From: Flavobacteriales bacterium
GTDB taxonomy: Bacteria > Bacteroidota > Bacteroidia > Flavobacteriales_E > Vicingaceae
NCBI GenBank assembly: GCA_002706365.1
Contig: PALM01000020.1
Coordinates: 186,001 to 250,000, forward strand
Reading direction: 5' to 3'
DNA: 64,000 nucleotides
Shown: in pieces, positions 3,702-23,268 of the stretch
Layout: every line of letters begins with the position of its first letter
How positions within the stretch are numbered: position 1 is the stretch's first letter
Notes under the pieces: generated by a model
Seen by the model: the letters and a program-made list of their open reading frames with translations, nothing else
Told to the model about the DNA's origin: nothing
Databases searched by the model: none
Position numbers and translations under genes: made by a program

Positions 3702-4106
3702 CTAATGCCAATTACTCTTTCGCTTCACCAAAACCTTCATAGCCTTCAAGCGCTGAGCATCGATCTTAGGAAGCGGATTTTTTGATTTAGGTTTAGAACG
3801 CCTAATATAGGCAGTAGATGCATGCCAGCCATTCTTCAGATTGTATAAGCGCAGGATAAGAAGCGCATAAAGAGGGACCATGGCAAAGCTATGGATCAAA
3901 AACGCAGATTTGAAACCGGCAAAGAATAAAGCAAGCACCAGCAGCAAGCTATGAATAAAACCCTGGAACAAAAGAAATTTGAAATAGCTCGCGAATCGAA
4001 TTTGTTGAATACGGAATTCTTTCAAGATCAAGAATGCGGTTATAAAAGCCGGAATGTAAAGCAATAGGGCCAAGATCTCGGCAATTTGTTGGAGGATTAC
4101 AAGCAT
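3702..4106 (-). CDS. Small membrane protein, function unknown
   Basis: The 134-residue product has about three hydrophobic segments (approximately 5-27, 43-66 and 70-88) followed by a basic tail rich in Lys and Arg (RRSKPKSKNPLP, KAMKVLVKRK), so the C-terminus probably lies in the cytoplasm. No family is recognised. It is the last chromosomal-looking gene before the accessory island, whose left boundary begins 60 bases upstream of its start codon. Confidence 0.65.
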   Translation of the reverse strand: MLVILQQIAEILALLLYIPAFITAFLILKEFRIQQIRFASYFKFLLFQGFIHSLLLVLALFFAGFKSAFLIHSFAMVPLYALLILRLYNLKNGWHASTAYIRRSKPKSKNPLPKIDAQRLKAMKVLVKRKSNWH

Positions 4107-4165
4107 AATATAAATGTACGCTTTGTATTGAAGACCTAATAATAGAGTAGTGTCTGAAATTATCT

Positions 4166-4193
4166 ATTTAACATAATATTAATTATAGGACAA
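4166..4193. other. dif-like Xer recombination site S1 (left end of island)
   Basis: ATTTAACATAA at 4166-4176 is identical to the reverse complement of the XerD-binding arm of E. coli dif. A 6-base centre (TATTAA) and an 11-base second arm (TTATAGGACAA, 4183-4193) follow, so the whole has the 11-6-11 dif layout. The same 11-mer recurs at four further places up to 16363. Recombination at the site is inferred. Confidence 0.6.
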
Positions 4194-4522
4194 AAGCAGT
4201 AATTTCCGTAATACGAGCCTTAGCGAGTATTTACACATAATAGCAGTTCTTGGACAGTACTCTGTACAATAACGATAGCTATTATGTTAAGGAAATTACT
4301 GCATGTATTCTAAAGGGATTTATAATTCTATGCTTTTGTCAACTATAATGGATATTATGTCTGCGTTTCATTTAAGCTTTTGTAAGCTTTGCTTTCAGCA
4401 AAACCAACAAATGCTAAAACTCAACTTGCTTGGCTCTTATCAGCCAAGTAAATTGCTCGCACAAATCCACGCTTCTTTTAAGAATAAAATGAAGAACATT
4501 CGTTTACTTTTGTCCTATAATT
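4181..4522. repeat. 342-base element with perfect 16-base terminal inverted repeats
   Basis: AATTATAGGACAAAAG (4181-4196) and its exact reverse complement (4507-4522) bound the element. Inside are a perfect 12-base pair of arms (4196-4207 with 4291-4302) and a perfect 10-base pair (4235-4244 with 4278-4287), giving a long nested hairpin. Its left part is homologous to 16314-16380 at the other end of the island. It overlaps dif-like site S1 through the second arm. A MITE-like origin is an alternative, but I see no target duplication. Confidence 0.6.
4229..4257. other. Inner dif-like site S1b
   Basis: ATTTACACATAA (one extra base relative to the XerD arm), a 6-base centre TAGCAG and the arm TTCTTGGACAG. 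The counterpart at 16353-16380 has the uninterrupted arm ATTTAACATAA, centre AATCAG and arm TTCTCGGACAC. An inverted arm TTATGTTAAGG (9 of 11 matches) follows at 4282-4292 within the hairpin. Confidence 0.45.
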
Positions 4523-4626
4523 AGTCGTTATGTCTCCGCCCGTTTGGCTAACGGGTCTTCGCCTACGGTAAATAACCGCTCAAATTGATTTAATTTTCTT
4601 TTTGCCGCCCCGAGGTTTTTCTTGCT

Positions 4627-4887
4627 CTACCCGGTGAAATAAGATTTGAGCCTATTCTTTAGAAACATTTTACCATAATGTGTTTTCAGATACTTTTCTC
4701 TTTTCAATGCATCTGCCTGTCCTAAACAAGCTTCGTAGTAAATTAATTTGAAAGGTCGTCTATTCATAGTTGATTCTACCTGACCTTTTTGGTGTTGCTC
4801 AAATCTTAAATCCAAATCCTTTGTATAGCCTGTATAAAGCTTACCATCCTTTTCGCTTTGAAGTACATAAGTGTAAAACATAATCAA
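4627..4887 (-). CDS. Small GIY-YIG nuclease-domain protein
   Basis: The 86-residue protein is one GIY-YIG domain: FYTYVLQS corresponds to the GIY strand, KLYTGYTKDLDLRFEQH to the YIG strand with the conserved Arg, and LKREKYLK carries the Glu of the active site. It resembles the YhbQ/UPF0213 group of stand-alone domains, which are widespread in Bacteroidetes and of uncertain function. It is the only gene between dif-like sites S1 (4166) and S2 (5424), so it would be the payload of the first module. The start may be the ATG two codons downstream (MFYTYVLQ). A role in mobility is possible but unproven. Confidence 0.8.
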   Translation of the reverse strand: MIMFYTYVLQSEKDGKLYTGYTKDLDLRFEQHQKGQVESTMNRRPFKLIYYEACLGQADALKREKYLKTHYGKMFLKNRLKSYFTG

Positions 4888-5331
4888 ATGTAAGGATTGG
4901 ATTTATTTCACGGGGCTAACGCTAAGCAAATAAGTTTTCATCTTTGCCAACGCTGAAGCCACCCAAAAAGATTTCAAACACATTTGCTTTTTCCCTCGCT
5001 TTTTTTAGATTTCGGTTGCTATCAAATTTTCGTTGATACTATGAAAATTGATATAACGAGATTGTTTTAAATTTTAAAAATTCATAGCCTTGTTTACAAA
5101 GCTATCGCTTTGGAGAAACCGACTTTAGGAGGTTCACGAACACATTTAAAATATTATCAAGTCGTGAGTAAATCCGAATAAATAATAGTCATATACTCAA
5201 CCTATTATTTATTTTTCTTTTTTCCTTTGATGAAAAAAGAAACAAAAAAATCAAGAAAAAACAATGCTTCTTCGCTCTCTTTGTGGCTTGCGCTGCTATC
5301 GCATCGCTGTTCCGCTAAGGCGGAACAAAAC

Positions 5332-5434
5332 CAATCCAAGGACGATTGCTATTCGTTTTAGCCACAAATTCACGCCAACGCCGGCTCGCTGTTTTTTCGG
5401 GCTTACGCTCTTTGCATTTCGTTATTTAACATAA
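5332..5434 (+). repeat. Cassette-tail repeat, copy 1 (ends in dif-like arm)
   Basis: CAATCCAAGGACGATTGC, CTATTCGTTTTAGCCAC and AAATTCACGCC follow one another, then TTTGCATT and the arm ATTTAACATAA. Copy 2 at 6363-6452 keeps the same blocks in the same order with scattered substitutions and a deletion in the middle. Each copy lies just upstream of a dif-like arm and, beyond it, the promoter of the next gene. Confidence 0.75.
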
Positions 5435-5451
5435 TATTTAAGATTGACTCA
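5424..5451. other. dif-like site S2 (XerD-type arm, weak second arm)
   Basis: ATTTAACATAA (5424-5434) is followed by centre TATTTA. The next 11 bases (AGATTGACTCA) match the S1 second arm poorly. The same arm in the same orientation as S1, S3, S4 and S5 marks the joint between the GIY-YIG module and the merTP module. Confidence 0.45.
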
Positions 5452-5481
5452 TTGCTTACAGATTATTATGTGTTAAAAAAG

Positions 5482-5489
5482 TACCTTTG
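5482..5489 (+). promoter_or_regulatory. -7 promoter box TACCTTTG for merTP
   Basis: TACCTTTG is an exact match to the Bacteroidetes -7 consensus TAnnTTTG, 34 bases before the ATG at 5524. A TTG lies at 5452-5454, somewhat further upstream than the usual 19-21 bases. The same octamer is used at 6484 for the next module. Confidence 0.55.
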
Positions 5490-5523
5490 AAAGAATTGGC
5501 AAGTTAATTTATTTAGAATCAGC

Positions 5524-6123
5524 ATGAAAACAACTTATATAGGTGCAGGACTTTTAGCAGCAATAGCTTCTTCCCTATGTTGTATAGCACCTTTGATTGC
5601 GATTGTTGGAGGAATTGCAGGAACTGCTTCTGCTTTTTCTTGGATTGAACCTGCCAGACCTTTTTTAATTGGCGTATCAATTGTTGCTTTAGGATTAGCT
5701 TTTTATCAGGCTTATAAACCTGTAGTAGTTAATGATTGCAACTGTGAAGTCACTGAAAAGAAGAACTTCATAAATTCTAAAGGTTTTTTATGGATAATTA
5801 CTGTTCTTTCGATTTTGATGTTTTCTTTTCCCTATTATTCTAATAATTTCTATCCTCCTATGACTTCAGAACAAAGGGTCTCTGACAGCACAAAAACGGT
5901 GCAATGTATCATTGATATTAAGGGAATGACTTGTGCAGGCTGTGAAAATCACGTGCAAACCGCTTTATTATCAATGAATGGAGTTACGGAAGCAAAAGCA
6001 TCCTACAAAGATGGAAATGCAGTTATTCAAGTAGATACTTCTAAAATCGCAATTAGTGAGCTGAAAATGAAATTAGAAGATGAAACAGGTTACAAAGTAT
6101 TGGGTCATAAAATCGGTAAATAA
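5524..6123 (+). CDS. merTP: MerT-MerP fusion (mercuric/metal ion transport protein MerTP)
   Basis: The 199-residue product joins a MerT-like membrane part (about 1-115, with the metal-binding SLCCIAPLIA in helix 1 at about 17-26 and a second cysteine pair CNC near residue 74) to a C-terminal HMA/MerP domain (about 127-195) carrying GMTCAGCENHV. In mer operons MerP passes Hg(II) to MerT for uptake into the cytoplasm; the one-chain form is usual in Bacteroidetes. The stop overlaps the next ATG by one base. No MerA reductase, MerB lyase or MerR regulator is present, so the true cargo or the fate of imported metal is unclear. It lies alone with its partner between dif-like sites S2 and S3. Confidence 0.85.
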   Translation: MKTTYIGAGLLAAIASSLCCIAPLIAIVGGIAGTASAFSWIEPARPFLIGVSIVALGLAFYQAYKPVVVNDCNCEVTEKKNFINSKGFLWIITVLSILMFSFPYYSNNFYPPMTSEQRVSDSTKTVQCIIDIKGMTCAGCENHVQTALLSMNGVTEAKASYKDGNAVIQVDTSKIAISELKMKLEDETGYKVLGHKIGK

Positions 6124-6347
6124 TGGAAAAAACGATTGAATTAAAATCAACGATTACTTGCCCAAAATGTGGGCATCAGAAACAAGAAGTTATGCCAACG
6201 GACGCTTGCCAATACTTTTATGATTGTGAGAATTGTAAAACCGTTTTAAAGCCAGTTAACAATGATTGCTGTGTTTATTGTTCTTACGGGACTGTCCCTT
6301 GCCCTCCTATTCAAGAGAATGGCAGTTGTGGTAGTGATTGTTGTTAG
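6123..6347 (+). CDS. GDCCVxC-domain cysteine-rich protein
   Basis: The 74-residue protein has an N-terminal zinc-ribbon-like CPKCGH plus CENC, then the family signature DCCVYCSYGTVPCPPIQ, and ends GSCGSDCC. Members are known next to mercury transport genes, sometimes with selenocysteine replacing a Cys of the signature; here all positions are Cys and no in-frame TGA is used. It overlaps the stop of merTP by one base (TAATG), implying translational coupling. The 12 cysteines in a cytosolic protein suggest capture of imported soft metal, which is inference. Confidence 0.8.
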   Translation: MEKTIELKSTITCPKCGHQKQEVMPTDACQYFYDCENCKTVLKPVNNDCCVYCSYGTVPCPPIQENGSCGSDCC

Positions 6348-6362
6348 TTATCGCTGTAAATT

Positions 6363-6452
6363 CAAATCCAAGAACGATTCCTATTCGTTTTAGCCACAAA
6401 TTCACACCGTCGCCAGCTCACACTTTTGCATTAGTAGTTTTATTTAACATAA
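6363..6452 (+). repeat. Cassette-tail repeat, copy 2 (ends in dif-like arm)
   Basis: Aligns with 5332-5434: the blocks ATCCAAGAACGATTCC, CTATTCGTTTTAGCCAC, AAATTCAC, TTTTGCATT and TTATTTAACATAATAT appear in order, with the middle shorter than in copy 1. It sits between the GDCCVxC gene and the efflux operon. Confidence 0.75.
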
Positions 6453-6469
6453 TATCAAAATAGTTCTTT
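6442..6469. other. dif-like site S3 (XerD-type arm, weak second arm)
   Basis: ATTTAACATAA (6442-6452) with centre TATCAA. The following 11 bases are not a good match to the second arm of S1. Same orientation as the other copies; it separates the merTP module from the RND/CDF module. Confidence 0.45.
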
Positions 6470-6483
6470 TTTCCAAAATTACT

Positions 6484-6491
6484 TACCTTTG
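6484..6491 (+). promoter_or_regulatory. -7 promoter box TACCTTTG before the efflux operon
   Basis: Exact TAnnTTTG match, ending five bases before the GTG start at 6497. If the transcript begins at the usual distance it would be nearly leaderless. The octamer is identical to the one preceding merTP and lies 42 bases from the start of the dif-like arm S3. Confidence 0.5.
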
Positions 6492-6496
6492 CCATT

Positions 6497-6799
6497 GTGA
6501 AAATTTTCGCAGCAATTTTAGGTATTTTCTTTTTGTGCTTGGCAGCAATGCCATGTGCCGATGCTGCCCCTTCTGAAGAAACAGTGATTGAATTAAGTCA
6601 AGAGCATAACCACGAAGGTGATATGGCCGACAACTGTGCCCCACTTTGTTATTGTCATTGCTGTCATGTTCATGTTACTATTTCAAACGATTATCCTAAA
6701 TTTTCTGCCATTACGCTTTTAAATGAACATACTAACTTTTATTCTAAAGCAGAGCCTGAAGCTCTAACCTACCCGCCATTTCGTCCCCCAATGGTTTAA
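6497..6799 (+). CDS. Small exported His/Cys-rich protein, DUF6660-like
   Basis: The 100-residue product starts with GTG and has a signal peptide (about 1-23, ending PCADA). The mature part has HNHEG and the cluster CAPLCYCHCCHVHV, a likely soft-metal ligand set in the periplasm. It resembles the DUF6660-type proteins seen in front of CusA/CzcA genes in Bacteroidetes. It is the first gene of the efflux module. The GTG is chosen because it gives the complete signal peptide; the next in-frame Met lies inside the hydrophobic core. Metal chaperone or sensor function is inferred. Confidence 0.7.
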   Translation: MKIFAAILGIFFLCLAAMPCADAAPSEETVIELSQEHNHEGDMADNCAPLCYCHCCHVHVTISNDYPKFSAITLLNEHTNFYSKAEPEALTYPPFRPPMV

Positions 6800-6812
6800 T
6801 TCAACTTTAATT

Positions 6813-6831
6813 GGGTAAGCACACCTTACCC
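6813..6831 (+). terminator. Short stem-loop after the DUF6660-like gene
   Basis: GGGTAAG (6813-6819), five-base loop and CTTACCC (6825-6831), followed by a T-rich stretch. It could be a weak terminator or attenuator between the small gene and the RND gene, 144 bases upstream of the latter. Confidence 0.4.
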
Positions 6832-6974
6832 CTTCTTATATCTTTTAAAAACCTATGGGTTTAAGGTATAATACGGAAGTAATAGCCGTTTTTGTTACGG
6901 ATATGCTATCGTTTAAAATCAGCATGGTATTAACCATTTGATTTTCAATTTATCGTTGAATTAAACTTTTAAGT

Positions 6975-9900
6975 ATGATTAATCAAATCATTTCTTTCTC
7001 AATAAGGAATAAATTTATTGTGGGCTTGCTTACGCTAGCTCTCATTGGAGTTGGAATTTATTCTATGAATACGGTCAATCTTGGATCGGTTCCGGATATT
7101 ACCAATAACCAAGTACAGGTAATGACTGTGTCCCCCAACCTTGCTACAGAAGATATCGAGCAATTTGTGACCTATCCGGTAGAGTTGGCAATGGGTAATT
7201 TGCCCGGTGTAGAGGAAATTCGCTCCATTTCCCGATTTGGACTCTCAGTAGTCACCATTGTTTTTGAAGATGAAATGGGAACTTATCTGCCGAGACAATT
7301 GGTACAGGAAAAACTGAACGAATTAAAGGAGACCATTCCTGAGAAATTTGGAAGCCCATCAATGGGTCCTATTTCCACAGGTTTAGGGCAGATTTATGAA
7401 TATACTATTCATCCTGAAGAGGGTTTTGAAGAAAAATACTCTCCAACAGACTTGCGTACAATTCAGGATTGGATTGTTAAAAGACAATTGACTTTGCTTG
7501 ACGGTGTGGTTGAAGTAAACTCTTTTGGTGGCTATATCAAGCAATACGAAGTAGCCATCAACCCCGATAAGCTAAATGCACAGAATGTAAGTATTTCTGA
7601 AGTATTTGAAGCTTTGGCTAGAAATAATGTTAATACAGGCGGTGCATACATCGAAAAAAACCGAATGTCCAACTTCATCAGAGGAGAGGGACTGATCCGA
7701 ACATTAGATGATATTCGAGCTATTGTTATTAAAACAGAAAATGGTATTCCGGTAACGATTGGCGATGTAGCCTCAAAGGTGCATTTTGGGCATCAAGTAC
7801 GCTATGGTGCATTTACTCAGGACGGTAAAGAAGCTGTTGGAGGCATTATTATGATGCTTAAAGGTTCTAATCCTAATGCCGTAATTCAAAATGTAAAAGA
7901 CCGTATGGAAGTGGTTGAAAAATCCCTTCCGGAAGGCTTAACCATAAATACAATTATTGATCGAAGTGAATTAATTGACAGGACTACCAATACGGTAAAA
8001 ACTAATCTACTAGAAGGAGCCTTGATTGTAATCTTTGCACTTGTACTATTATTAGGAAGTCTGCGGGGCGGTATCATAACAGCTACTACTATTCCGCTCT
8101 CCTTATTATTTGCATTTATATTAATGAAGCAATTTAATGTTTGGGCCAACCTAATGAGTTTAGGTGCTATTGACTTTGGAATTATCATTGACGGTGCGGT
8201 AATTATCATTGAAGGTACGGTTTATGAAATTCAAAAACGAATCCGAACAGGGAAAATTAATTTTAGCCGGGGAGTCATGGATGAAGTTGCTTATGAGTCT
8301 GGCAGCACCATGATGGGGTCTGCATTCTTTGGTCAGATTATTATCCTCATTGTATTTGCCCCAATTTTGTTTCTTACAGGCGTAGAAGGCAAAATGTTTC
8401 AACCCATGGCTTACACCTTTGGCTTTGCAATGATTGGAGCAATTTTCCTTTGCCTAACCTATGTCCCTATGATGTCTGCCTTGCTTATGAAACCAATTCA
8501 GAACAAAAATAACTGGTTTGGCCGATTTGAGCGATGGCTGGAAAAAGTGAGTGACAAAATTATTGGTGGTATTCAAAAGGCTTACTTGCCCTTGCTAAAA
8601 AGTGCTCTTCGCTTTAAAACTATAGTGATTATTGTGGCTATTTTTCTACTGGGCATCGCAGGATTTACTTTTTCCCGCATGGGAGGAGAATTTGTTCCTC
8701 AATTGGATGAAGGAGATATTGCCATGCAAGCACTCATTAGACCCGGAAGTTCACTTAGTGAATCAAAAGATGTTTCTATAAGAATTGAAAAACTTTTACT
8801 GGAGGATTTCCCGGAAATTAAAACGGTAACCGCTCGGATTGGTGTAGCAGATATTCCTACAGACCCTATGCCTATGGACATTGCTGACATGTATCTGATT
8901 CTTGAAAAAGACAAAGATAAATGGGTATCAGCAAATAGTAAAGATGAGCTAATTGATAAAATAAAAGACAAACTCGATAAGGAACTTGTTGGTGTTAACC
9001 TAGTCTTTACTCAACCAGTAGAGTTGAGATTTAACGAATTACTTGAAGGAGTGAGAGAGGACATTGCAGTAAAGCTTTATGGTGAAGATTTAGAAATTTT
9101 GTCTAACAAAGTGCAGGAGATGGCAGATATTATTTCTACTGTACCCGGTGCCGGTGATGTAAATCCCGAACGTACTTCAGGACTTCCCCAAATGACTGTT
9201 CGTTACAATCGGGCTAAAATCGCACAATACGGTCTTAATATTCAAAAACTGAATGAATACGTGAGCTCAGCTTTTGCCGGCGGAGTAGCAGGAGTAGTTT
9301 TTGAAGGTGAAAAACGATTCGATCTTGTGATCCGCTTTGATGAAGCTCATCGGAAAAGTATTGATGACCTTCGCACCCTTTATGTTGATCTTCCGGATGG
9401 TACACAAGTGCCAATTGAAGAAGTGGCTGATATTAGCTATGTCCCGGGTCCGATGCAGATTTCTCGTGATAACACCTATAGAAGAACTTATGTTGGGGTG
9501 AATACGCGAGGAAGAGATGTAGAATCGGTTGTAAAAGATATTCAAGACAAACTAAATGCACAATTGGACTTACCACCCGGTTATTATATTACCTATGGTG
9601 GAGAGTTTGAAAATTTGGAACGAGCTAAGAACAGGTTGGCTATTGTTGTTCCAATAGCATTGTTTCTGATTTTCGTCTTACTCTACTTTGCCCTAAAATC
9701 ATTCTCTCAATCCATTATGATTTACATTGCAATTCCACTAGCAGCTATTGGCGGTGTGTTTGCCTTATGGATGCGAGACATGCCCTTTAGTATCTCCGCC
9801 GGTGTAGGGTTTATTGTATTATTTGGGGTTGCGGTGCTGAATGGCTTAGTCTTAATTAACCGCTTTAATTCTTTAAAAGAAGAAGGAGTAACCAAAATCA

Positions 9901-11384
9901 AAGACCGCATTTTTACCGGAACTAAAGAACGGATTAGACCTATTATGCTTACGGCAACAACCGATATTTTCGGATTTCTGCCAATGGCATTTTCAACCTC
10001 AGCAGGTGCTGAAGTACAACGGCCATTAGCAACTGTAGTGATTGGAGGAATGCTGACAGCTACTTTTCTGACACTTGTAGTACTGCCGGTTTTTTACACT
10101 TTCGTTGAGAAACGCAGGGAAAAGAAAATTGGAAATCAGGGGAATAAAACAGCTCTGAACACCATCGTTCTGCTCATTGGTTTAGTTGGTTTATTCAGTA
10201 TTCCTCAATCTGCAACCGCACAGAATTTAAATCCAGATACCTTGGAGACTATTTCCCTTAAAAATGCTCAACAAAGGGTTGTTAAATTTTTTCCGCAAGT
10301 GAAGGCGAAAAGATTGCAAATAGAAAGCGAAGAGGCTCTCAAAAAAACGGCTTGGGATTTTGGAAATACTCAAATATTCACAGGAGCGGAGGAAGTAAGC
10401 AACAATACAGATGGAGTTTATACCCGGATAGGGGTTCAACAACAAAATATTGATGTCTTCGGCATTGCCCCACGCTTACGGTTGCAAAAAGAGCGGATAG
10501 CTCTTGCAGAAAGTTCCCTTGACTTGTCTTTAGCAGAGCTTAAACGAAAAGTGAAACTAGCTTGGGGGCAAGCTTATGCTGCGAAAAATACTTATCAGGT
10601 ATACAATCGGCTAGATTCGCTCTTTACCGATATTGAACGAGCAGCAGATGTAAGATTGGAAGTAGAAGAAACTTCTAAACTAGCTTATTTAGCTACTAAA
10701 AATCAAGCCAATGAAGTACGAATTCAAAAAGAACAGGCCTATCGCAATTACTTAAGTGCATTGCGACAGCTTAACTTATGGCTGGTCAGCGATACCCTTT
10801 ATACCGTGCCCAATGTGCCCAGTGAGCAGTTAACCGGAATACTCAATTTTGATATGGATTCCTTAAATTCTCACCCATTGCTTACTATGTATCAACAGCA
10901 AATAGAAGTGGCTGATGCTAAATTAAAGGAAACGAGATCAGACTTTTTGCCTAAGTTACAGGGTCAATATGGGTGGCAAGAAGTTGGAGGGCAAACCGGC
11001 TTTTATACCTATCAAGTAGGCATTAAGATTCCCTTGTTTTTTAGCCCTGAACTCGGACGTAAACAAGAGGCAAAAATCCAGCGAGAAATTGCCACCGAAA
11101 ACCTAAGGCAAAATCAGCTTCAATTTAATGCACAATTTCTGTCTAAAAAGGAGGAATACCTGAAGTGGCGTAACTCTTGGAGCTATTACAAAAATCAGGC
11201 ATTACCACTTGCTCAGGAGCAGAGAAAAGGAGCAATAGCCGCCTACCGTGAAGGAGCAATAAATTACGTTACCTTTTTGCAAAATATTAGGGATGCTATT
11301 CGCATAGAAGTGGATGCTTGGAATGCTTTGGGCAATTATTTGAATAACCGCTACGAACTTGAATACTTTTTAACAAAAAACTAA
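6975..11384 (+). CDS. HME-family RND metal efflux pump fused to TolC-like outer membrane channel
   Basis: The 1469-residue protein is an RND pump (about 1-1045) followed by a second signal-like helix (about 1059-1085, ending SATAQ) and a TolC-type channel (about 1086-1469). This fusion of inner-membrane pump and outer-membrane factor is characteristic of Bacteroidetes. TM4 carries GAIDFGIIIDGAVIIIE with D400, D406 and E413, matching the proton-relay residues of CzcA rather than the Cu/Ag-type CusA sequence. Divalent cations (Zn/Co/Cd/Ni) are therefore the better guess. The adaptor follows after 29 bases. It exports metal from the periplasm or cytoplasm across the envelope. Confidence 0.9.
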   Translation: MINQIISFSIRNKFIVGLLTLALIGVGIYSMNTVNLGSVPDITNNQVQVMTVSPNLATEDIEQFVTYPVELAMGNLPGVEEIRSISRFGLSVVTIVFEDEMGTYLPRQLVQEKLNELKETIPEKFGSPSMGPISTGLGQIYEYTIHPEEGFEEKYSPTDLRTIQDWIVKRQLTLLDGVVEVNSFGGYIKQYEVAINPDKLNAQNVSISEVFEALARNNVNTGGAYIEKNRMSNFIRGEGLIRTLDDIRAIVIKTENGIPVTIGDVASKVHFGHQVRYGAFTQDGKEAVGGIIMMLKGSNPNAVIQNVKDRMEVVEKSLPEGLTINTIIDRSELIDRTTNTVKTNLLEGALIVIFALVLLLGSLRGGIITATTIPLSLLFAFILMKQFNVWANLMSLGAIDFGIIIDGAVIIIEGTVYEIQKRIRTGKINFSRGVMDEVAYESGSTMMGSAFFGQIIILIVFAPILFLTGVEGKMFQPMAYTFGFAMIGAIFLCLTYVPMMSALLMKPIQNKNNWFGRFERWLEKVSDKIIGGIQKAYLPLLKSALRFKTIVIIVAIFLLGIAGFTFSRMGGEFVPQLDEGDIAMQALIRPGSSLSESKDVSIRIEKLLLEDFPEIKTVTARIGVADIPTDPMPMDIADMYLILEKDKDKWVSANSKDELIDKIKDKLDKELVGVNLVFTQPVELRFNELLEGVREDIAVKLYGEDLEILSNKVQEMADIISTVPGAGDVNPERTSGLPQMTVRYNRAKIAQYGLNIQKLNEYVSSAFAGGVAGVVFEGEKRFDLVIRFDEAHRKSIDDLRTLYVDLPDGTQVPIEEVADISYVPGPMQISRDNTYRRTYVGVNTRGRDVESVVKDIQDKLNAQLDLPPGYYITYGGEFENLERAKNRLAIVVPIALFLIFVLLYFALKSFSQSIMIYIAIPLAAIGGVFALWMRDMPFSISAGVGFIVLFGVAVLNGLVLINRFNSLKEEGVTKIKDRIFTGTKERIRPIMLTATTDIFGFLPMAFSTSAGAEVQRPLATVVIGGMLTATFLTLVVLPVFYTFVEKRREKKIGNQGNKTALNTIVLLIGLVGLFSIPQSATAQNLNPDTLETISLKNAQQRVVKFFPQVKAKRLQIESEEALKKTAWDFGNTQIFTGAEEVSNNTDGVYTRIGVQQQNIDVFGIAPRLRLQKERIALAESSLDLSLAELKRKVKLAWGQAYAAKNTYQVYNRLDSLFTDIERAADVRLEVEETSKLAYLATKNQANEVRIQKEQAYRNYLSALRQLNLWLVSDTLYTVPNVPSEQLTGILNFDMDSLNSHPLLTMYQQQIEVADAKLKETRSDFLPKLQGQYGWQEVGGQTGFYTYQVGIKIPLFFSPELGRKQEAKIQREIATENLRQNQLQFNAQFLSKKEEYLKWRNSWSYYKNQALPLAQEQRKGAIAAYREGAINYVTFLQNIRDAIRIEVDAWNALGNYLNNRYELEYFLTKN

Positions 11385-11413
11385 AACCGGAAACGGATAA
11401 AAAATTAAAAACG

Positions 11414-12628
11414 ATGAAAAATTATATCATAAAATTATTTACGCTACTGTTTTTAGCCGGATTTATATCAGCTTGTGGCGATAATACGAATGCAATTGAA
11501 CACAATCATCAAGATGGTGAGCAAAATGAATCACAAGTAGGTAACCATGAAGAAAGTCTGGGTGAAGTTCATTTGTCAGGATTGAAATTTGAAAGTCTGG
11601 GAATAAAAGTAGATACGCTTCCATCAAGACCTTTGTCAGGGGTGGTAAAGGCTAATGGACAGTTAGAAGTACCACCACAACATGAGGCTACTGTTACTGC
11701 TATTGTAGGTGGTAATATCACTTCTATAAAAGTGATTGAAGGAGATAAAGTCAATAGAGGTCAGATACTTGCTTATTTGTCTCATCCAGATCTTACTGAA
11801 ATTCAAACTAAATATATCGAAGCATATAATCGCACTGAATATTTGGAGAAGGAATACAATCGTCAGAAGAAGCTTTACGAAGAAGAGGTAGGTTCGGGCA
11901 AAACTTTTCAGGAGACAAAGTCTGATTATTTTTCTATGAAAGGAAAAGTAAAGGGCTATGAGGCACAGCTAAGGCAATTGAACCTGAATGTTGAGAAAAT
12001 TAGCAATGGTGATGTATATGAACAGATACCGGTAGTAAGCCCTATAGATGGTTATATTGAAAAAGTGGTGACTCAGATTGGTCAATATATTCAGCCTCAA
12101 ACCGGAATGTTTAAAATTGTAAATACCGATCATATTCATGCGGACTTAATGGTATTTGAAAAGGATGTATATAAAGTAAAAAAAGGACAAAAAATTGCTT
12201 TCACAGTAGAATCAGTTCCCGGAACCACCTTAACTGCCGAGATTTATTCTGTAGGCAAACAATTCGAGCAAAACCCTAAAGCTGTTCATGTGCATGCGGA
12301 AATTAAGGAAAAGAAGAATTTCTTGATTCCGGGCATGTACATCAATGGAAAAATTCAAACGGAAAGTAATACTGTAAAAGCTCTGCCGGAAGGAGCCATC
12401 ATTGAGGAAGAAGGCAGGCCTTATATTTTTATGGCGGAAGCACATGAAGAAGGTGGTGAAACCGAATGGGCATTTAAGGCTATTGAAGTGCGTACCGGCA
12501 TATCCGATGAGGGATGGGTTGAGATTAAATTATTAGAGCCTTTTCCTGATGGAGCTCAAGTAGCCATGAATAATGCCTATTACTTAATTTCTGAAATGAA
12601 AAAAGGTGAAACGGAGCATGAACATTAA
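11414..12628 (+). CDS. RND periplasmic adaptor subunit, CusB/CzcB type lipoprotein
   Basis: The 404-residue protein starts with a lipoprotein signal (about 1-21, lipobox FISAC with C21) followed by a His-rich linker (EHNHQDGEQ, NHEE). The membrane-fusion fold is visible: a first lipoyl half (HEATVTAIVGGNITSIKVIEGDKVNRGQIL), an alpha-hairpin (about 125-195), the second lipoyl half (VVSPIDGYIEKV) and a beta-barrel part. The protein links the RND pump to the TolC domain. The N-terminal histidines may sense or bind metal. The next gene starts three bases after the stop, so it belongs to the operon. Confidence 0.88.
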   Translation: MKNYIIKLFTLLFLAGFISACGDNTNAIEHNHQDGEQNESQVGNHEESLGEVHLSGLKFESLGIKVDTLPSRPLSGVVKANGQLEVPPQHEATVTAIVGGNITSIKVIEGDKVNRGQILAYLSHPDLTEIQTKYIEAYNRTEYLEKEYNRQKKLYEEEVGSGKTFQETKSDYFSMKGKVKGYEAQLRQLNLNVEKISNGDVYEQIPVVSPIDGYIEKVVTQIGQYIQPQTGMFKIVNTDHIHADLMVFEKDVYKVKKGQKIAFTVESVPGTTLTAEIYSVGKQFEQNPKAVHVHAEIKEKKNFLIPGMYINGKIQTESNTVKALPEGAIIEEEGRPYIFMAEAHEEGGETEWAFKAIEVRTGISDEGWVEIKLLEPFPDGAQVAMNNAYYLISEMKKGETEHEH

Positions 12629-12631
12629 GAT

Positions 12632-13264
12632 ATGGAGAACAATCGAAATAAATACCTAAAAGAAGCAAGAAGATTACAAATATGGAACGTCATTTATGAT
12701 GTTATTGAGGTGGTTGTTGCTCTAATTGCAGGCGTTTCTTCCAATAGCTCGGCACTTATTGGTTGGGCTTTAGATAGTACCATTGAAGTTATAAGTGCAG
12801 CTACTTTAGGTTGGCGTTTACATGGTGAAATTGAAGGAATTGATGAAGAAAGAGTGCAGCGAAGAAAGAAAATAACATTATATGTGATCGCCGCTTCCTT
12901 TACTTTAGTTTGCTTTTTTATTTCCTATGATTCTATTTCGAAATTGATAAATCAGGAAACTGCTAAATGGAGCACCGCAGGATTGATTATACTATTGGTT
13001 TCTTTGGTGGTAAACCCAATTCTAATTTATTACAAAAGAGATTATGGTAAAAAACTTGACAGTTCCGGCTTGTTGGCTGATGCAAAAGACACTTTTATTT
13101 GCCTTTACCAAACAGTGGTAGTCCTCGCCGGATTGTTACTTTCAAAATGGTTAGGATGGTGGTGGGCAGACCCTTTAGCTGCACTTTTAATTGTTCCTTA
13201 TGCAGCAAAAGAAGGTAGGGAAGCCTTTAAAAAAGCGAAGGAGATTTCTTATGAAGTCGGTTGA
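12632..13264 (+). CDS. CDF-like cation transporter lacking a cytosolic domain
   Basis: The 210-residue product has about six hydrophobic segments and little else. Motif-like acid residues occur where CDF exporters bind metal: ALDSTIEVIS in the second segment (D, E) and LADAKDTFIC in the fifth. The C-terminal domain of classical CDF proteins is missing, making it shorter than the usual 290-320 residues. It starts three bases after the adaptor gene. It is probably a metal/proton antiporter from cytosol to periplasm; the ion is unknown. Confidence 0.75.
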   Translation: MENNRNKYLKEARRLQIWNVIYDVIEVVVALIAGVSSNSSALIGWALDSTIEVISAATLGWRLHGEIEGIDEERVQRRKKITLYVIAASFTLVCFFISYDSISKLINQETAKWSTAGLIILLVSLVVNPILIYYKRDYGKKLDSSGLLADAKDTFICLYQTVVVLAGLLLSKWLGWWWADPLAALLIVPYAAKEGREAFKKAKEISYEVG

Positions 13265-13364
13265 TCATTTTGGGATTTATCGACAAGTTGGTTTTCATTA
13301 AAAAGGCGAAGCAGAACATAGTCATTAAACTAATGCTGATGTACTAAAACAATAGAATAAATAT

Positions 13365-14021
13365 ATGAACGGAACTAAAAAAGAACAAGAAGAAGCAATT
13401 CACTATTACGATAAGATTTCGACTATCTACGATTTTATCTCGAATTGGTATTATAAAAAACCAAGAAAATATGCAATTGAAAAACTCAAATTAAAAAAAG
13501 ACCAAGTTGTTCTAAACCTGCCATGTGGGACAGGAGTGAATTTTAAATATTTTCAGCATTATCTTAAAAATTCAGGATTGATTTTAGGAATTGATTTATC
13601 TGATGGAATGCTGAAACAAGCGGAGCAGAAAATTGATAAAAACGATTGGACAAACATTGATTTACAGTTAGAAAATGCCATCATGGTCGATCAAAAATGG
13701 GTTAATGAGTATTCAAATGGTAAGAGAATAGAAAAATTCGATGCTGTATTTTGCGATTTAGGGCTTTCCGGACTTCCTGATTGGAAGAACATAATTGACA
13801 ACATGATCTCAATATTAAAACCGGGAGGGTCGATTGTAATTCTTGATTGGTACGTTGAAAAGCCCGGACTATTAGGGAAATTTATTAAATGGATTGGCAA
13901 AGGAGAAGTTAAAAGACCACTGTGGCAATACTTACAAAGCAAAATATTTGACTTTGAACTGAAGTGGTTTGGGGTTTTCAATGGTGTATTTGTAGCATCC
14001 GGTGTGAAAGCACCTAAATAA
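13365..14021 (+). CDS. Class I SAM-dependent methyltransferase
   Basis: The 218-residue product has the Rossmann methyltransferase motifs in order: VVLNLPCGTGVNF (motif I, about 49-61), GIDLSDGMLKQAEQK (acidic end of strand 2), DAVFCDLGLSGLPDW and LKPGGSIVILDWY (post-motif III, about 150-162). It resembles the UbiE/small-molecule methyltransferase group. Its position between metal transporters suggests methylation of a metal or metalloid species or a lipid/quinone, but no As/Te-specific cysteine pattern is evident. The gap of 100 bases from the previous gene contains no clear promoter. Confidence 0.8.
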   Translation: MNGTKKEQEEAIHYYDKISTIYDFISNWYYKKPRKYAIEKLKLKKDQVVLNLPCGTGVNFKYFQHYLKNSGLILGIDLSDGMLKQAEQKIDKNDWTNIDLQLENAIMVDQKWVNEYSNGKRIEKFDAVFCDLGLSGLPDWKNIIDNMISILKPGGSIVILDWYVEKPGLLGKFIKWIGKGEVKRPLWQYLQSKIFDFELKWFGVFNGVFVASGVKAPK

Positions 14022-14030
14022 AAGAAAACG

Positions 14031-14399
14031 ATGAATACTGTAATTCCAAAGAAGTTAAAGCCATTCTATCTAGCAGAACTGAATGCTTATAAATGTGAGG
14101 TGCAAAAGAATAACTTGCATAAAGCTTGGCAACATTTAGAGAGAGCTCATGTAATAGGGCAAGCCTACCCATACGAACATTCCTATGTGCATTGGAAAAT
14201 GCTTTTGTTTGGCATCAAAATTAAAAACACAAAAGAAGTAGTCGGGCAGATTCCAAGATTAGTGTTTGGTGGTATAAAGTCATTCGTAGGTACTATTCCG
14301 GTAGGCAATACAGGCGGAGCAAACGTTCCACCTCTTCGTCCCTTGCCAATTTCAGAGGAAATTCAAAACATATTTAAATTAGCGGGAGTTAAAAAGTAA
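14031..14399 (+). CDS. DUF3703-like protein
   Basis: The 122-residue protein matches what is known of DUF3703: an N-terminal helix-rich LAELNAYKCEVQKNNLHKAWQHLERAHVIGQAY, a WKMLLFGIK segment and a C-terminal PVGNTGGANVPPLRPLPI. The LERAHxxGQ block with two histidines recurs in the family. Function is unknown; such genes commonly lie beside heavy-metal transporters. It begins nine bases after the methyltransferase and is followed by the CzcD-like gene after six bases, so the three are probably cotranscribed. Confidence 0.75.
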   Translation: MNTVIPKKLKPFYLAELNAYKCEVQKNNLHKAWQHLERAHVIGQAYPYEHSYVHWKMLLFGIKIKNTKEVVGQIPRLVFGGIKSFVGTIPVGNTGGANVPPLRPLPISEEIQNIFKLAGVKK

Positions 14400-14405
14400 T
14401 GCAAT

Positions 14406-15284
14406 ATGGGACATAATCATTCACATGAAAATGAATCCGGTAAGAATCTAAGAACAGCGTTTTTACTTAACATATGTTTTACCATTTTTGAAATAATTGG
14501 TGGCTTTTACGTCAATAGTGTCGCTATTATATCCGATGCCGTTCATGATTTGGGAGATAGTATTTCATTAGGCATTTCATGGTATTTGGATAAAAAATCG
14601 AAACAAGTAGGAAATAAGAAGTTTTCTTTTGGTTACAAGCGATTTTCGCTCTTAGGAGCATTAATTAACTCCTTGGTTTTAATTGGTGGTTCGGTTTACG
14701 TAATTTATGAAGCGATAAACCGATTAATTGAACCTGAACTTTCAGATGCTAATGGTATGATTGTTTTTGCAATAATTGGAGTATCTGTTAATGGTTATGC
14801 CTCTTGGAAATTGAGTGGTGCAAAAACATTGAACGAAAAAGTAGTTTCATGGCATTTATTGGAGGATGTTTTGGGTTGGGCTGCGGTGCTTGTAGTTGCT
14901 ATAATTTTAAAATTTAAACAAACCCCCTATTTAGACCCTGCTCTTTCCCTTTTTATAACTGCGTATATTTTATTTAATGTAGTCAAGCGACTAAAAGAAA
15001 CATTAGTCATATTTCTACAAGGCGTTCCAGACGACATTAGTATTGATAAAATTGAAATCGCATTAATTGCAATTGAGAATGTGGATTCCATTCATCATAC
15101 ACACATTTGGTCTCAGGAAGGAGAAAGCCACGTTTTTAGCACACATTTAAAACTGAAGAATATTCAAAATTTGAATGAATTATTGAAATTGAAAAAAGCA
15201 GTAAAAGAAAGCTTAAAAGAATACCACTTCGATCATTGTACGGTAGAAACAGAATTGGATAAAGAGAGTTGTGGAATAGAATAA
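14406..15284 (+). CDS. Cation diffusion facilitator, CzcD/ZitB type
   Basis: The 292-residue product starts with a His-rich tail (MGHNHSHENE), has six membrane helices and a C-terminal cytosolic domain (about 205-285) with IHHTHIWS. The zinc site is intact: HDLGD (HxxxD) in helix 2 within SDAVHDLGDS, and HLLED (HxxxD) in helix 5. It should export Zn(II), Cd(II) or Co(II) from the cytosol in exchange for protons, feeding the periplasmic capture by the RND pump. Of the three CDF-type proteins here it is the only one with the classical metal site. Confidence 0.88.
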   Translation: MGHNHSHENESGKNLRTAFLLNICFTIFEIIGGFYVNSVAIISDAVHDLGDSISLGISWYLDKKSKQVGNKKFSFGYKRFSLLGALINSLVLIGGSVYVIYEAINRLIEPELSDANGMIVFAIIGVSVNGYASWKLSGAKTLNEKVVSWHLLEDVLGWAAVLVVAIILKFKQTPYLDPALSLFITAYILFNVVKRLKETLVIFLQGVPDDISIDKIEIALIAIENVDSIHHTHIWSQEGESHVFSTHLKLKNIQNLNELLKLKKAVKESLKEYHFDHCTVETELDKESCGIE

Positions 15285-15291
15285 AAGGATA

Positions 15292-16089
15292 ATGAAGAAA
15301 TCAATTTTCAATATTGCTCAAATGGATTGCCCGTCCGAAGAACAAATGATACGGATGAAATTGTCAGAGTTAAATGGAATTCATCAACTTGAATTTGATA
15401 TTCCCAATAGGAAACTGACCATAGTTAATGAAACAGATTCTAAGTTAATTCTTGATTCTTTAGAAGATTTAAAACTCAATACCACTTTAATTTCTGAAGA
15501 ATCAATTAAAGATTATGTAGCTGAAAAATCAACCAATGCGAATGAGCGTAAAATGTTGTGGGCAGTTCTCATTATCAATTTTACCTTCTTTTTGATTGAA
15601 TTGATCTATGGTTGGCTTTCAGATTCAATGGGGTTAATCGCTGATTCATTAGATATGCTTGCTGATTCTTTGGTTTATATTTTGAGTCTGATGGCAGTTG
15701 GAGCAGCTGTAGCTAAAAAGAAAAAAGTAGCACGTTTAAGTGGATATTTTCAAATGGCTTTAGCAGTTTTAGGTTTAGCTGAATTAATAAGAAGAGTTTT
15801 CGGAACGTCTGAAATTCCTGAGTTTCAGAATATGATTATCATTTCAATTTTAGCCCTAATTGCCAATTCTGTTTCGCTCTACCTCATTCAGAAAGCCAAA
15901 AGTAAAGAAGCTCATATGCAAGCTTCAGCTATTTTTACTTCAAATGATATCATTATTAATTCGGGTGTAATTGTAGCAGGTGTTTTAGTCTACCTGACTG
16001 AAAGTAAGATTCCCGATTTGGTAATTGGGTTAATCATTTTTGGAATTGTATTAAGAGGTGCTTTTAGAATATTAAGATTAGGAAAATAA
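15292..16089 (+). CDS. Cation transporter with degenerate HMA-like N-terminus
   Basis: The 265-residue product begins with an about 70-residue HMA-like fold whose binding loop reads MDCPSEEQM, so only one Cys remains, followed by a CDF-like six-helix membrane part. Metal-site positions read DMLAD in helix 2 (DxxxD) and NDIIIN in helix 5, unlike the HxxxD pairs of the neighbouring CDF. There is no cytosolic C-terminal domain. It starts eight bases after the previous gene and closes the operon. Altered ligands suggest a different ion from the CzcD-like neighbour. Confidence 0.75.
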   Translation: MKKSIFNIAQMDCPSEEQMIRMKLSELNGIHQLEFDIPNRKLTIVNETDSKLILDSLEDLKLNTTLISEESIKDYVAEKSTNANERKMLWAVLIINFTFFLIELIYGWLSDSMGLIADSLDMLADSLVYILSLMAVGAAVAKKKKVARLSGYFQMALAVLGLAELIRRVFGTSEIPEFQNMIIISILALIANSVSLYLIQKAKSKEAHMQASAIFTSNDIIINSGVIVAGVLVYLTESKIPDLVIGLIIFGIVLRGAFRILRLGK

Positions 16090-16293
16090 TAATATTGCCT
16101 CCCCTACTTCACACACTTTCGTTTTCGCTGCGCTGCACCAAAAAAGTGTTCCGTCCTTCCCCAAATTGAAGAGAAAGAGAAAAACCTTCCCTCCTTTTTT
16201 AAAAAGAAATTAAATCAGCTTCCCAAATAAAATTTTGTCATGATTTTTGGGGAATTGAAGGGTTAAAATCACGCCAAAATTTAATGCTGCGTT

Positions 16294-16325
16294 ATTTAAC
16301 ATAACGCAAGGACATTATAGGGCAT
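16294..16325. other. dif-like site S4 (right end of island)
   Basis: ATTTAACATAA (16294-16304) and TTATAGGGCAT (16315-16325, 9 of 11 matches to the S1 second arm) are separated by ten bases instead of six. The site is also part of a perfect 8-base palindrome, TGCGTTAT with ATAACGCA around TTAAC. It is the direct-repeat counterpart of S1, about 12.1 kb away. Confidence 0.5.
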
Positions 16326-16488
16326 AATAAGATAAATCCCGTAATACGTAGTATTTAACATAAAATCAGTTCTCGGACACACCTGTTCGAGATCGATCGA
16401 TTTTATGCGCCGTGCTGAGCCCGTCGAAGCATTAAGGGATTTATCGCATTCATAATAGAATGATCCAAAAACTCTATTATGCCGCCCT
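16314..16488. repeat. Hairpin element homologous to the left-end element
   Basis: The outer arms are AGGGCATAATA (16319-16329) and TATTATGCC-G-CCCT (16475-16488); the inner arms GATAAATCCC (16331-16340) and GGGATTTATC (16436-16445) are perfect. ATTATAGG, CCGTAATACG, GTATTTA, ACATAA, CAGTTCT and GGACA occur in the same order as in 4182-4256. The element is shorter than the left one and has taken up a GAGCCCGTCGAAGC word in its loop. Confidence 0.6.
16353..16380. other. dif-like site S5
   Basis: ATTTAACATAA (16353-16363), six-base centre AATCAG, second arm TTCTCGGACAC (16370-16380). With S1 it is the only site here with a full 11-6-11 layout; its second arm matches the S1 arm at 8 of 11 positions. 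Confidence 0.6.
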
Positions 16489-16657
16489 GACTGCCTATAT
16501 ATCGCAAACCGTCCGGGTTTAACAAAATATTGATCATTGGAAAGACTTGCTTTCTAGTGGCATTTAATTGCTTTTGAGAATTAGCAATTTTTACTCCTAA
16601 ATTTTATAATCATCAACCTTCCTTTGCCTTGAAAATGCTACTTAAAGTGCTTTGTAA

Positions 16658-17287
16658 ATGAAGAAAAACGTTTCTACTAAAGTTAAAATATCTGCACATA
16701 TAGTGGGATGTGCCTTGCTTTTTATTAATCTGTTTATGCAAAAAGTCGTTGGTCAAACTACTGGGTTTACTGGTGTGAACGTTTCATACTTGGGTGAAAT
16801 GGTTACTCATCCAGGTATAAAGGTAGGTGTAGATTATGGATTGAGTGCGTGGTCAAAAGTAAAAGCAGAGGGCAAAGAGCGTGAAAGAAAGATCTCGAAA
16901 AGCATAGTTTTCTCGCCATCCTTAGGATCATTCTACCATAAAAGATATCAAACAGGGTTTTTCATTATTCCAGAGCTGAAGTACTTGAGAGTAAACCCGA
17001 AAGGCTTTTATTATGATTTAGGTATTGGGCTCGGCTATTTGCGAACTGTAATACCCAATGTTTATGAAATATCCCCTTCTGGAGATATCAACAAAGTACA
17101 GGTGGGTTATGACTACTTATCTTCCTTATGTTTTATAACGTTAGGGAGATCCATAAATAGACAAAACGACAATTCAATGTCGCTTTTTGTAAAGCCACAG
17201 TTCATGTATGCTATTCCCAACTTTACATATGGAACAGGATACTTTTTTCTAGAACTCGGGGTAAACTTAAAAATCAAAGAAACATGA
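16658..17287 (+). CDS. Exported beta-barrel-like protein, function unknown
   Basis: The 209-residue product has a long signal peptide (about 1-32, ending VVGQ). The mature part alternates aromatic and small residues in short strands (GFFIIPELKYLRV, GFYYDLGIGLGYLRTV, MSLFVKPQFMYAI, GYFFLELGVNLKI), with a final strand suited to an outer-membrane barrel. No specific family is recognised. Its stop overlaps the next start in ATGA, so it is translated together with the hydrolase gene. Confidence 0.7.
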   Translation: MKKNVSTKVKISAHIVGCALLFINLFMQKVVGQTTGFTGVNVSYLGEMVTHPGIKVGVDYGLSAWSKVKAEGKERERKISKSIVFSPSLGSFYHKRYQTGFFIIPELKYLRVNPKGFYYDLGIGLGYLRTVIPNVYEISPSGDINKVQVGYDYLSSLCFITLGRSINRQNDNSMSLFVKPQFMYAIPNFTYGTGYFFLELGVNLKIKET

Positions 17288-22293: not shown

Positions 22294-23268
22294 TTATTTT
22301 TCAGGTACTATTTTCAGAACCATTTTCTGTTCAAAGCGAATTTCTTCGCCCCTATCATTCATAGCAGCCCTCCATTGATCGTGATCTAAAAAATAGCGCT
22401 CAATTTCTTTGCCTACGGCAGTATCAATCACTCGATGTAGCATAACTTTTGATATGTGTCCATCTTTTTCAATCACTAAGGAATAAAAGTTACTTCCGTA
22501 GACCCCATTTTCTCTTAAGCCAGGTAGTTTTTTTTCAAGGTGAGCCAGTAGGTCTTGTTGAATGTGCAATTGCATGGAATCCGTAATAGGAGGTTTTGCT
22601 GCATAATGATAAATTCTATTAAGATCCGTCTTAAGTTCTTCTACTATTTCTAAATCAGGAATGAGGTCAATTTCTTTCAGATCAGGATAAGTATTCAAAG
22701 ATTTTCTCTCCATTTGCCCTAGAGATACATACTGCAGCTGAGTAAGTGCGCTGTGCTTTTTCGATTGATAGTCGATCGACCCCAACTTGGGAATCACTTT
22801 ACCTTCTTGATTTAACATAAAGTGATGGTTGTATTCAGTAACGGACTTCTTCCATCCTGAAATAGGGGCGCTGTAAGCATATCCTTCTTCATAAAAATAC
22901 ACCTCGGCTTTATCGTCTACCATAAAGGCAATTTCACCTTGAGTTAAATGCCACTGTCCATTATGATATGTTAAAAAAGCAAGAGCCTTCTTTTTTTCAG
23001 TTACAAACTGTTTGGGGAATGTCGGTGGACAAACAACATTAAAATCATGCTTTACTTTCAAGTAGTCTCCTTCTGTTATACCACTTTGCTTTCGATGCAG
23101 AACCTCTAGTATTTGAATTCTAAAAAAACCATTTCCTGCAGCCCTTAGCTGTATATGAGCAACTAAATTGGGTTTAAGCAATAGTTCATGCATTTTGTGG
23201 GGCGCTTGATCGGCGAATAGTCGAATGCAAATACCACTAAAAAGCAGAATGGTGATTATTTTCTTCAT
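22294..23268 (-). CDS. Exported protein with TonB-like C-terminal domain
   Basis: The 324-residue product has a signal peptide (about 1-20, ending LFADQA). The last 90 residues (LVIEKDGHISKVMLHRVIDTAVGKEIERYF, with FEQKMVLKIVPEK at the end) follow the pattern of the TonB C-terminal fold often found at the end of periplasmic Bacteroidetes proteins. The first 150 residues are unassigned. Being secreted rather than anchored, it cannot be a canonical energy transducer. It lies in the exported-hydrolase operon. Confidence 0.6.
   Translation of the reverse strand: MKKIITILLFSGICIRLFADQAPHKMHELLLKPNLVAHIQLRAAGNGFFRIQILEVLHRKQSGITEGDYLKVKHDFNVVCPPTFPKQFVTEKKKALAFLTYHNGQWHLTQGEIAFMVDDKAEVYFYEEGYAYSAPISGWKKSVTEYNHHFMLNQEGKVIPKLGSIDYQSKKHSALTQLQYVSLGQMERKSLNTYPDLKEIDLIPDLEIVEELKTDLNRIYHYAAKPPITDSMQLHIQQDLLAHLEKKLPGLRENGVYGSNFYSLVIEKDGHISKVMLHRVIDTAVGKEIERYFLDHDQWRAAMNDRGEEIRFEQKMVLKIVPEK

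Follow-up and report, generated by a model that had tools for sequence, protein, structure and literature searches.

Bacteria separate the copies of their chromosome at a site called dif, and several kinds of mobile DNA exploit this site or sequences that resemble it. CTXphi of Vibrio cholerae integrates at dif without an integrase of its own: its attP1, with a 12-bp center, and its attP2, with a 5-7 bp center, lie inverted 90 bp apart, come together on a folded single strand, and are exchanged by XerC only (PMC4246890). Bacteroidetes microvirus proviruses (BMV) also use dif-like sites without an integrase, and BMV4-6 have one more dif-like site, an arrangement that recalls CTXphi (PMC3091885). 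EludIMEX-1, which carries a resistance gene, and the gonococcal genomic island (GGI) lie at dif or dif-like sites and are credited to the host Xer system (PMC5357621), while LME-1 of Legionella, an element with a dif mimic, integrates at dif and is reported to have a modified dif site downstream (PMC9765430). The pdif and chromosomal dif modules of Acinetobacter hold cargo between Xer sites, several modules in a row; they are bounded by 28-bp C/D and D/C sites, are known mainly from plasmids, and are said not to involve the main dif (PMC12907356). Our literature searches, with most subscription journals outside their coverage, returned no paper describing islands of cargo genes at the dif site of Bacteroidota; on related ground they returned reviews of integrative mobile elements exploiting Xer, the Acinetobacter modules, and the Bacteroidetes microvirus proviruses. 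Here we analyze a 64,000-nt stretch of a Flavobacteriales genome (GCA_002706365.1, contig PALM01000020.1; "the window") that contains an island of metal-transport genes. We think it probable that positions 4166-16325 of the window are a cargo-only integrative element that sits at the chromosomal dif and uses the host XerC and XerD, and we favor the version in which it integrates in a CTXphi-like manner.

The left end of the island is a site of form A at 4166..4193 (+ strand), composed of the XerD arm ATTTAACATAA, the center TATTAA, and the XerC arm TTATAGGACAA. The 11-mer ATTTAACATAA, which we take to be equal to the XerD arm of E. coli dif, is present in the window at 4166, 5424, 6442, 16294 and 16353, always on the + strand and between genes, as an initial annotation of this DNA had stated; a sixth copy, at 22810, lies within the coding sequence 22294-23268, and the chance mean for the window is 0.14. 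That annotation had proposed to check genome-wide frequency and intergenic bias. In the whole assembly (G000; 3.02 Mb, 47 contigs, the window's own contig being 358 kb), the only copies of the 11-mer are these six in the window, five of them within the island and all on one strand, and the 11-mer read backwards has 3 copies. Because the bare 12-mer TATTTAACATAA, found in 47 of 60 relatives, gives counts similar in size to those of its reversed control, the shorter motif alone proves little, and it is the 28-nt layout that constitutes the signal.

We searched 46 genomes of the family for that layout using the pattern ATTTAACATAAN{3,14}TTATARGACA together with a reversed-pattern control. The pattern matched 33 genomes and the control none. 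The 45 matching sites fall into 34 with a 6-nt center (form A; 32 genomes have a single such site and G024 has two) and 11 with a center of 9-11 nt (form B), and the 13 genomes without a match include some that are incomplete and at least one (G001) with a variant arm. Cumulative GC skew peaks at position 205,947 of the window's 358-kb contig, 15.8 kb from A (190,166 in contig coordinates), in a profile whose noisiness counts against the placement, and at 312,039 in a 400-kb stretch of G010, 8.0 kb from A at 304,029. Because the 11-6-11 form is single-copy in 32 of the 33 family genomes that have it, and is close to the skew maximum in both genomes for which skew was computed, the site at 4166 is, judging from sequence, very likely the chromosomal dif of G000 itself. 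The comparison with the native dif that the initial annotation had suggested therefore has a direct answer: the second arm of dif matches TTATAGGACAA, since the site at 4166 is dif.

The right end is a site of form B at 16294..16325 (+), in which the XerD arm ATTTAACATAA is followed by a 10-nt center, CGCAAGGACA, and the XerC arm TTATAGGGCAT. The initial annotation described an 11-6-11 layout at 4166 and at 16353, and the sequences there agree with its description; it placed the left end correctly at 4166, but it took 16353 for the right end and overlooked the boundary at 16294 because of the longer center. The site at 16353 is a nested dif-like copy and not the end of the island. A and B are 12,128 bp apart in G000. 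Under the strict pattern, A and B lie on one contig and on the same strand, with B downstream, in G019, G010, G008, G015, G018 and G005; G000 is the seventh such genome, its B having a variant XerC arm that falls outside the strict pattern, and relaxing the XerD arm reveals B in G004, G011 and G020 as well. No relaxed B in reverse orientation was present in the fetched stretches. In G006, A is at the extreme end of a contig and three B sites are on another contig; in G017 and G036, A and B are on separate contigs; and in the remaining fetched stretches that contain A, several of which stop shortly after it, no B was seen. Across these relatives A forms the left end and B the right end of islands that, by sequence comparison, enclose differing cargo.

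Two congeneric species provide the locus in empty and occupied states. The order in G028 is left flank, A, a segment X, a half-site h and right flank, and in G004 it is left flank, A, X1, h1, cargo, B, X2, h2 and right flank. Both flanks are 94% identical, and A of G028 aligns with both A and B of G004, which are about 11.33 kb apart, the size of the unit; at the far end of the insert, G004 carries another dif-like site that has a center of its own. The initial annotation had suggested looking for empty sites in related strains, and such variation is present between these two species of one genus. Segment X belongs to the occupied state, as A stands without X in G025, G021, G003 and G012. To the right of half-site h, G028 (L050) additionally has an insertion of ~340 bp that is missing from G004 and has the direct repeat TTTTCTACA on either side.

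The island is also common to different genera. G006 belongs to another genus, and its DNA similarity with the window begins at 4165, that is, at dif. Window positions 4165-16327 match the array in G006 in pieces of 97.3, 89.6, 91.1, 77.3 and 99.1% DNA identity, with about 1.5 kb unmatched (12604-14145); the piece at 4343-5440 matches a different module of the array, and the last (2,183 bp, 99.1%) ends at 16327, immediately beyond B. The match with another of the B sites of G006 is weaker (83%) and reaches 16407. Between window positions 1-24000 and G006 there is no other match longer than 120 bp except weaker second matches inside the block, the stretch left of A in G006 has no match longer than 80 bp with the window, and two right-flank genes that the window and G006 have in common show 45% and 49% protein identity. 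In these alignments the unit is present or absent, is stacked in tandem, and is common to different genera, with breaks at the sites.

Metal efflux genes are the cargo in G000, G019, G006 and G004, type IIG restriction-modification genes in G011 and G020, large proteins sorted by the type IX secretion system in G010 and G005, and a mixed set in G015. Between A and B of G008 (L039:4475-16393) are homologues of MzaB, MzaC, MzaD and MzaE and a DNA methylase, with MzaA and two further genes of that island yielding no match; G017, whose B is on another contig, has type I restriction genes to the right of A. Arrays of modules are formed in G005, with B sites 9.5 and 18.9 kb from A, in G004 (11.3 and 34.4 kb), and in G006 with its three B sites, and the modules vary in size between 0.5 kb (G018) and about 48 kb (G006).

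A new observation is that many of these sites are followed, on their right, by inverted dif-like copies, which suggests to us an element of the CTX type that exploits Xer. The search required the inner XerD half TTATGT and covered 36 of the 38 segments that lie to the right of an A or B site (19,682 bases; two segments cut by contig ends were dropped). It found 34 inverted dif-like sites, where shuffled sequence gave 0.4 on average and 4 at most, and one direct copy against 0.32 expected; elsewhere in the fetched stretches there are 9 inverted matches in 957 kb. The first inverted copy begins about 70-400 nt from the site. TTATGT is followed by CT in 26 of the 34 copies, indicating that the XerD arm is interrupted there, and the outer half, TAAAT[AT], follows within 160 nt in 29 of 34, compared with a background of 29% at randomly chosen positions, or 39% when these are chosen near A or B. 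The stretch between the two XerD halves is 0, 1 or 25 to about 112 nt long and is often hairpin-like, with ends CTCC...CGGG or CTGC...GCAG. In the window, the inverted site P2 (4338..4454, - strand) comprises an XerC arm (4338-4348), a center (4349-4354), an XerD half (4355-4360), an 88-nt insert, and a possible second XerD half that is degenerate (TAAATT, 4449-4454). The second inverted site, P3 (4510..4574, -), has the center TTAGTCG, an XerC arm identical to that of dif, and an XerD arm split by a 35-nt insert (4534-4568).

We folded 21 of the stretches running from a site to its inverted copy as DNA; a 22nd pair (G008 B) was over the length limit. Fold z-scores ranged from -1.5 to -10.6, the inner XerD half was fully paired in 19 of 21, and the XerC arm paired with the inverted copy at 7-9 of 9 bases in 20 folds and at 6 of 9 in one. 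When the whole window segment is folded, dif pairs with P3 rather than with P2. At position 6 of the XerC arm, the two members of a pair have the same base in all 22 pairs (13 G, 9 A). A pairing of half-site h with P3 was considered as well and was unsupported in eight segments, where h pairs locally or elsewhere.

In the CTXphi-like version, incoming DNA would be recombined into dif by the host XerC and XerD. The element's B would pair, on a single strand, with the inverted dif-like copy to give a dif-like duplex with a mismatched center; XerC alone would then carry out a single strand exchange at the border between XerC arm and center, and replication would complete the integration. An exchange on the XerC side would leave the 6-nt center on the left and the element's center on the right, the arrangement seen in the ten genomes with both sites on one contig, in which left sites keep a 6-nt center and right sites have centers of 9-11 nt. 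Because the left site retains its 6-nt center, dif would stay usable. We infer both Xer catalysis and the folded form; use of the host enzymes is suggested by the XerD gene of G000 (347.5 bits, NCBIfam cut-off 329.6) and by its XerC-like gene (327.8 bits, just under the cut-off of 335.15), both of which are outside the island. The interruption after TTATGT could spoil the XerD arm as a duplex yet be looped out in the folded strand, and might in this way act as a lock: only DNA present as a single strand, such as that arriving by transformation or conjugation, would then integrate. We put this lock forward ourselves, as a possibility that the folding results neither prove nor exclude.

Among the described systems, CTXphi is the closest: B and P2 together would share the attP1/attP2 plan, and in the window island, too, no integrase was matched. 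It differs in that no phage genes were matched here, the cargo consists of metal pumps or defense genes, and the host is a member of the Bacteroidota; moreover, the inverted copy has an interrupted XerD arm and begins at the distance given above. The BMV are genomes of single-stranded DNA phages (BMV1, 6.3 kb) with capsid genes (PMC3091885), and no such genes were matched here. Tandem arrays and inverted folded sites are not mentioned for EludIMEX-1 and GGI in the available text of PMC5357621, and GGI has a divergent XerD arm where B has a long center. LME-1 differs in depending on a single-recombinase XerL host system. The initial annotation had likened the architecture to the pdif modules of Acinetobacter, but here A and B share one orientation in place of C/D and D/C sites bounding each module, the center of B is 9-11 nt long, and the main dif is the anchor; the closest mechanism is instead CTXphi-type integration at the main dif.

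Several results weigh against this account. An inverted copy within 600 nt is present at 17 of 27 A sites and 5 of 11 B sites (the B set includes that of G000 and leaves out that of G036; among the misses, three of the 10 at A sites are cut off by a contig end after 39, 99 and 346 bases, and a run of N occurs in one of the 6 at B sites), and no strict inverted copy was found within 600 nt to the right of the window's own B. The two folds without pairing of the inner XerD half are both B sites. The outer XerD half (TATTTA/TAAATA) is paired in none of the 21 minimum-energy folds, the cost of forcing it being 0.2-2.3 kcal/mol in the 14 folds tried; stem bases outside the arms show no covariation (304 of 2000 permutations reach the observed value); and the match between the XerC arms of a pair may reflect only recognition by the same XerC. 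The element model leaves half-sites h1 and h2 unaccounted for, and the genes of the window island matched no family concerned with replication or transfer.

The scarcity of strict inverted copies at B sites, the window's B among them, and the unpaired outer arm half are what would be expected if host XerC and XerD integrated ordinary double-stranded circles at dif, in the manner of VGJphi or GGI, with the inverted copies being decorative or regulatory and no folded strand involved. Such circles fit poorly with the B centers of 9-11 nt as opposed to the 6 nt of dif, and with inverted copies that are strongly enriched and in one orientation only; we give this alternative a real but minority share of the probability.

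The CTXphi-like reading can be extended by analogy with integron cassette arrays, in which one anchor site holds a stack of modules in the same orientation, recombination sites fold on the single strand, and the chemistry is Xer-like. The islands at dif resemble them in each of these respects: the anchor, the same-orientation stack, the predicted foldable sites and the proposed Xer-like chemistry. They differ from the integron plan of intI with an attI/attC array, as no intI was matched in the window island and the anchor is dif, and also in that their arms are dif arms and their modules range from 0.5 kb to about 48 kb. (A literal attC reading, based on RYYYAAC/GTTRRRY motifs, was dropped once form A proved to be dif.) We tentatively propose a Xer-run cassette system in which dif would be the fixed anchor, like attI, and each module would bring a foldable site with a broken XerD arm, like attC, that acts on the single strand only; Bacteroidota would in this way collect metal-resistance and phage-defense modules at the terminus from imported strands, without a dedicated integrase and with dif kept. 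This proposal is speculative, and slightly less likely for the fact that none of the 21 minimum-energy folds pairs the outer arm half.

The strongest alternatives to an explanation by Xer alone are a clade of tyrosine recombinases and homologous exchange inside islands. The c51 clade (XerA/integron-integrase-like proteins of 274-276 aa) might move the modules, acting in trans where it is missing, which would make an integron-like system on a dif platform. All four of its members in the 46 family genomes (L056:5350-6180, L051:1380-2204, L096:4323-5150 and G012:C4:48298-48624) are at dif loci, a fact that does not favor Xer alone: that of G006 lies between two B sites, and those of G035, G060 and, as a fragment, G012 lie 1.7-10.6 kb right of A. 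The matches in G035 and G012 contain a stop. Against such a system, G000 and most island genomes have no clade member, other matches there being 26-36% identical, and at E 1e-60 the only match among 395 genomes of the class is G006 itself. We consider a c51-driven system unlikely.

Homologous recombination could instead swap cargo beside dif wherever segments are repeated or cargo genes are shared, Xer acting rarely or long ago. The copies of X are similar (79-84% in g4), and G011 and G020 share sequence at 90-91% identity with differing cargo between: the shared part extends 1.9 kb right of A and resumes ~0.3 kb left of B, placing the cargo edges inside the island, so that replacement there did not occur at the sites themselves, which counts against the Xer account. 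At odds with this explanation are the similarity to G006, which begins at 4165 and whose best match ends at 16327, at the sites, and the second dif-like site of G004, with a center of its own, at the far end of the insert. We judge homologous recombination, too, to be improbable as the general explanation. A chance or promoter-like motif of AT-rich spacers, which could appeal to the AT-rich XerD arm, to a bare 12-mer whose frequency in relatives is close to that of its reversed control and to half-sites upstream of genes, is refuted for A and B, though not for the half-sites, by the absence of control matches to the 28-nt layout and by the empty and occupied pair, and has almost no likelihood left. 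A reading as a miniature inverted-repeat transposable element was dropped, since the unit ends coincide with dif-like sites and the cargo differs.

Within the window island, a nested hairpin lies in the loop between dif and the inverted site (4196..4302, +; evident from the sequence, its fold and inverted repeat I8) and contains a dif-like copy, TATTTACACATAA-TAGCAG-TTCTTGGACAG, at 4228-4257. The copy at 4228 is the counterpart of the 16353 site, with one extra base in an arm, and the 16353 site itself is part of a nested hairpin seen in the sequence right of B (16331..16445, +). An open reading frame with a GIY-YIG domain (4627..4887, -; PF01541), located within the accessory segment X next to dif, is 98.8% identical in G006 and was not seen in the other fetched stretches. 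The end of segment X with half-site h1 (5333..5440, +; repeat D1) has an XerD arm at 5424-5434 without an XerC arm, and a second copy of the segment end (6365..6458, +; repeat D1, 86%) contains h2 at 6442-6452; a 63-nt repeat (5333-5395 and 6365-6427, 86% identical) precedes the two half-sites. The initial annotation had rightly described the second arms of its internal sites as poor: on their sequence, 5424 and 6442 are XerD half-sites.

Between the two copies of the segment end are a MerT-HMA fusion for mercuric transport (5524..6123, +; PF02411, PF00403) and a GDCCVxC domain protein (6123..6347, +; NF041374), and the pair is missing at that place in G019. Because the pair is flanked by both copies and G019 lacks it, it may be a sub-module of the island. 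The remaining genes, all on the + strand, encode a small DUF6660 protein (6497..6799; PF20365), a CusA/CzcA heavy-metal resistance-nodulation-division pump (6975..11384; TIGR00914 across residues 1-1052 of 1469, followed by a long additional C-terminal part), a CzcB-like periplasmic adaptor (11414..12628; TIGR01730), a cation diffusion facilitator (CDF; 12632..13264; PF01545), a class I methyltransferase (13365..14021; PF13847), a DUF3703 protein (14031..14399; PF12487), a CDF efflux protein (14406..15284; TIGR01297), and a CDF efflux protein with an N-terminal HMA domain (15292..16089; PF01545, PF00403). As the initial annotation had claimed, the block is without integrase, transposase and relaxase genes, none of these families being matched among the 11 island genes scanned; genes of filamentous single-stranded DNA phages were not matched in the window island either, the cargo being metal transport, and the five PF00589 genes of G000 are all on other contigs. 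A plasmid collection contained no near match to window positions 4100-16700, Rfam gave nothing at the gathering threshold in positions 1-24000, and the window has no tRNA.

A scan for B-like sites returned 20 stretches, 8 with an inverted match and 12 without; three of the 8 (Taibaiella koreensis, an Ignavibacteriaceae bin and a RIFCSP Bacteroidetes bin) are from outside those genomes, and one of the 12 is a Candidatus Fimenecus bin, perhaps a chance match. The core of P3 is found in 17 of 395 genomes of the class, 12 of them in the family; because the reversed control matches 5 genomes, the 5 matches outside the family are at background by number, and two of them (G259 and G196) have dif within 200 nt. 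In one Bacteroidetes bin (L128), B-like sites at 4689 and 6613, 1,924 nt apart and each with inverted copies, form a small module pair. In IMG/VR, 2 of the 80 stretches examined, out of at least 120, have an inverted match, and the P3 pattern has no exact match. Many IMG/VR contigs (L146-L225), several of them ~5 kb long, contain a 28-nt dif-like site with the same arms and varied centers (TGGTAA, TGCAAA and others); these are possibly dif-using phages of Bacteroidota.

If the proposed reading is true, the site of chromosome separation would, in one family of Bacteroidota, also be where cargo modules dock, beyond the phages and the Acinetobacter plasmids for which related arrangements are described. 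The interrupted XerD arm would be a concrete device for single-strand-only recombination, and one that is open to testing. A search rule that combines dif, B and inverted copies would find mobile defense and metal-resistance modules that integrase-based searches overlook.

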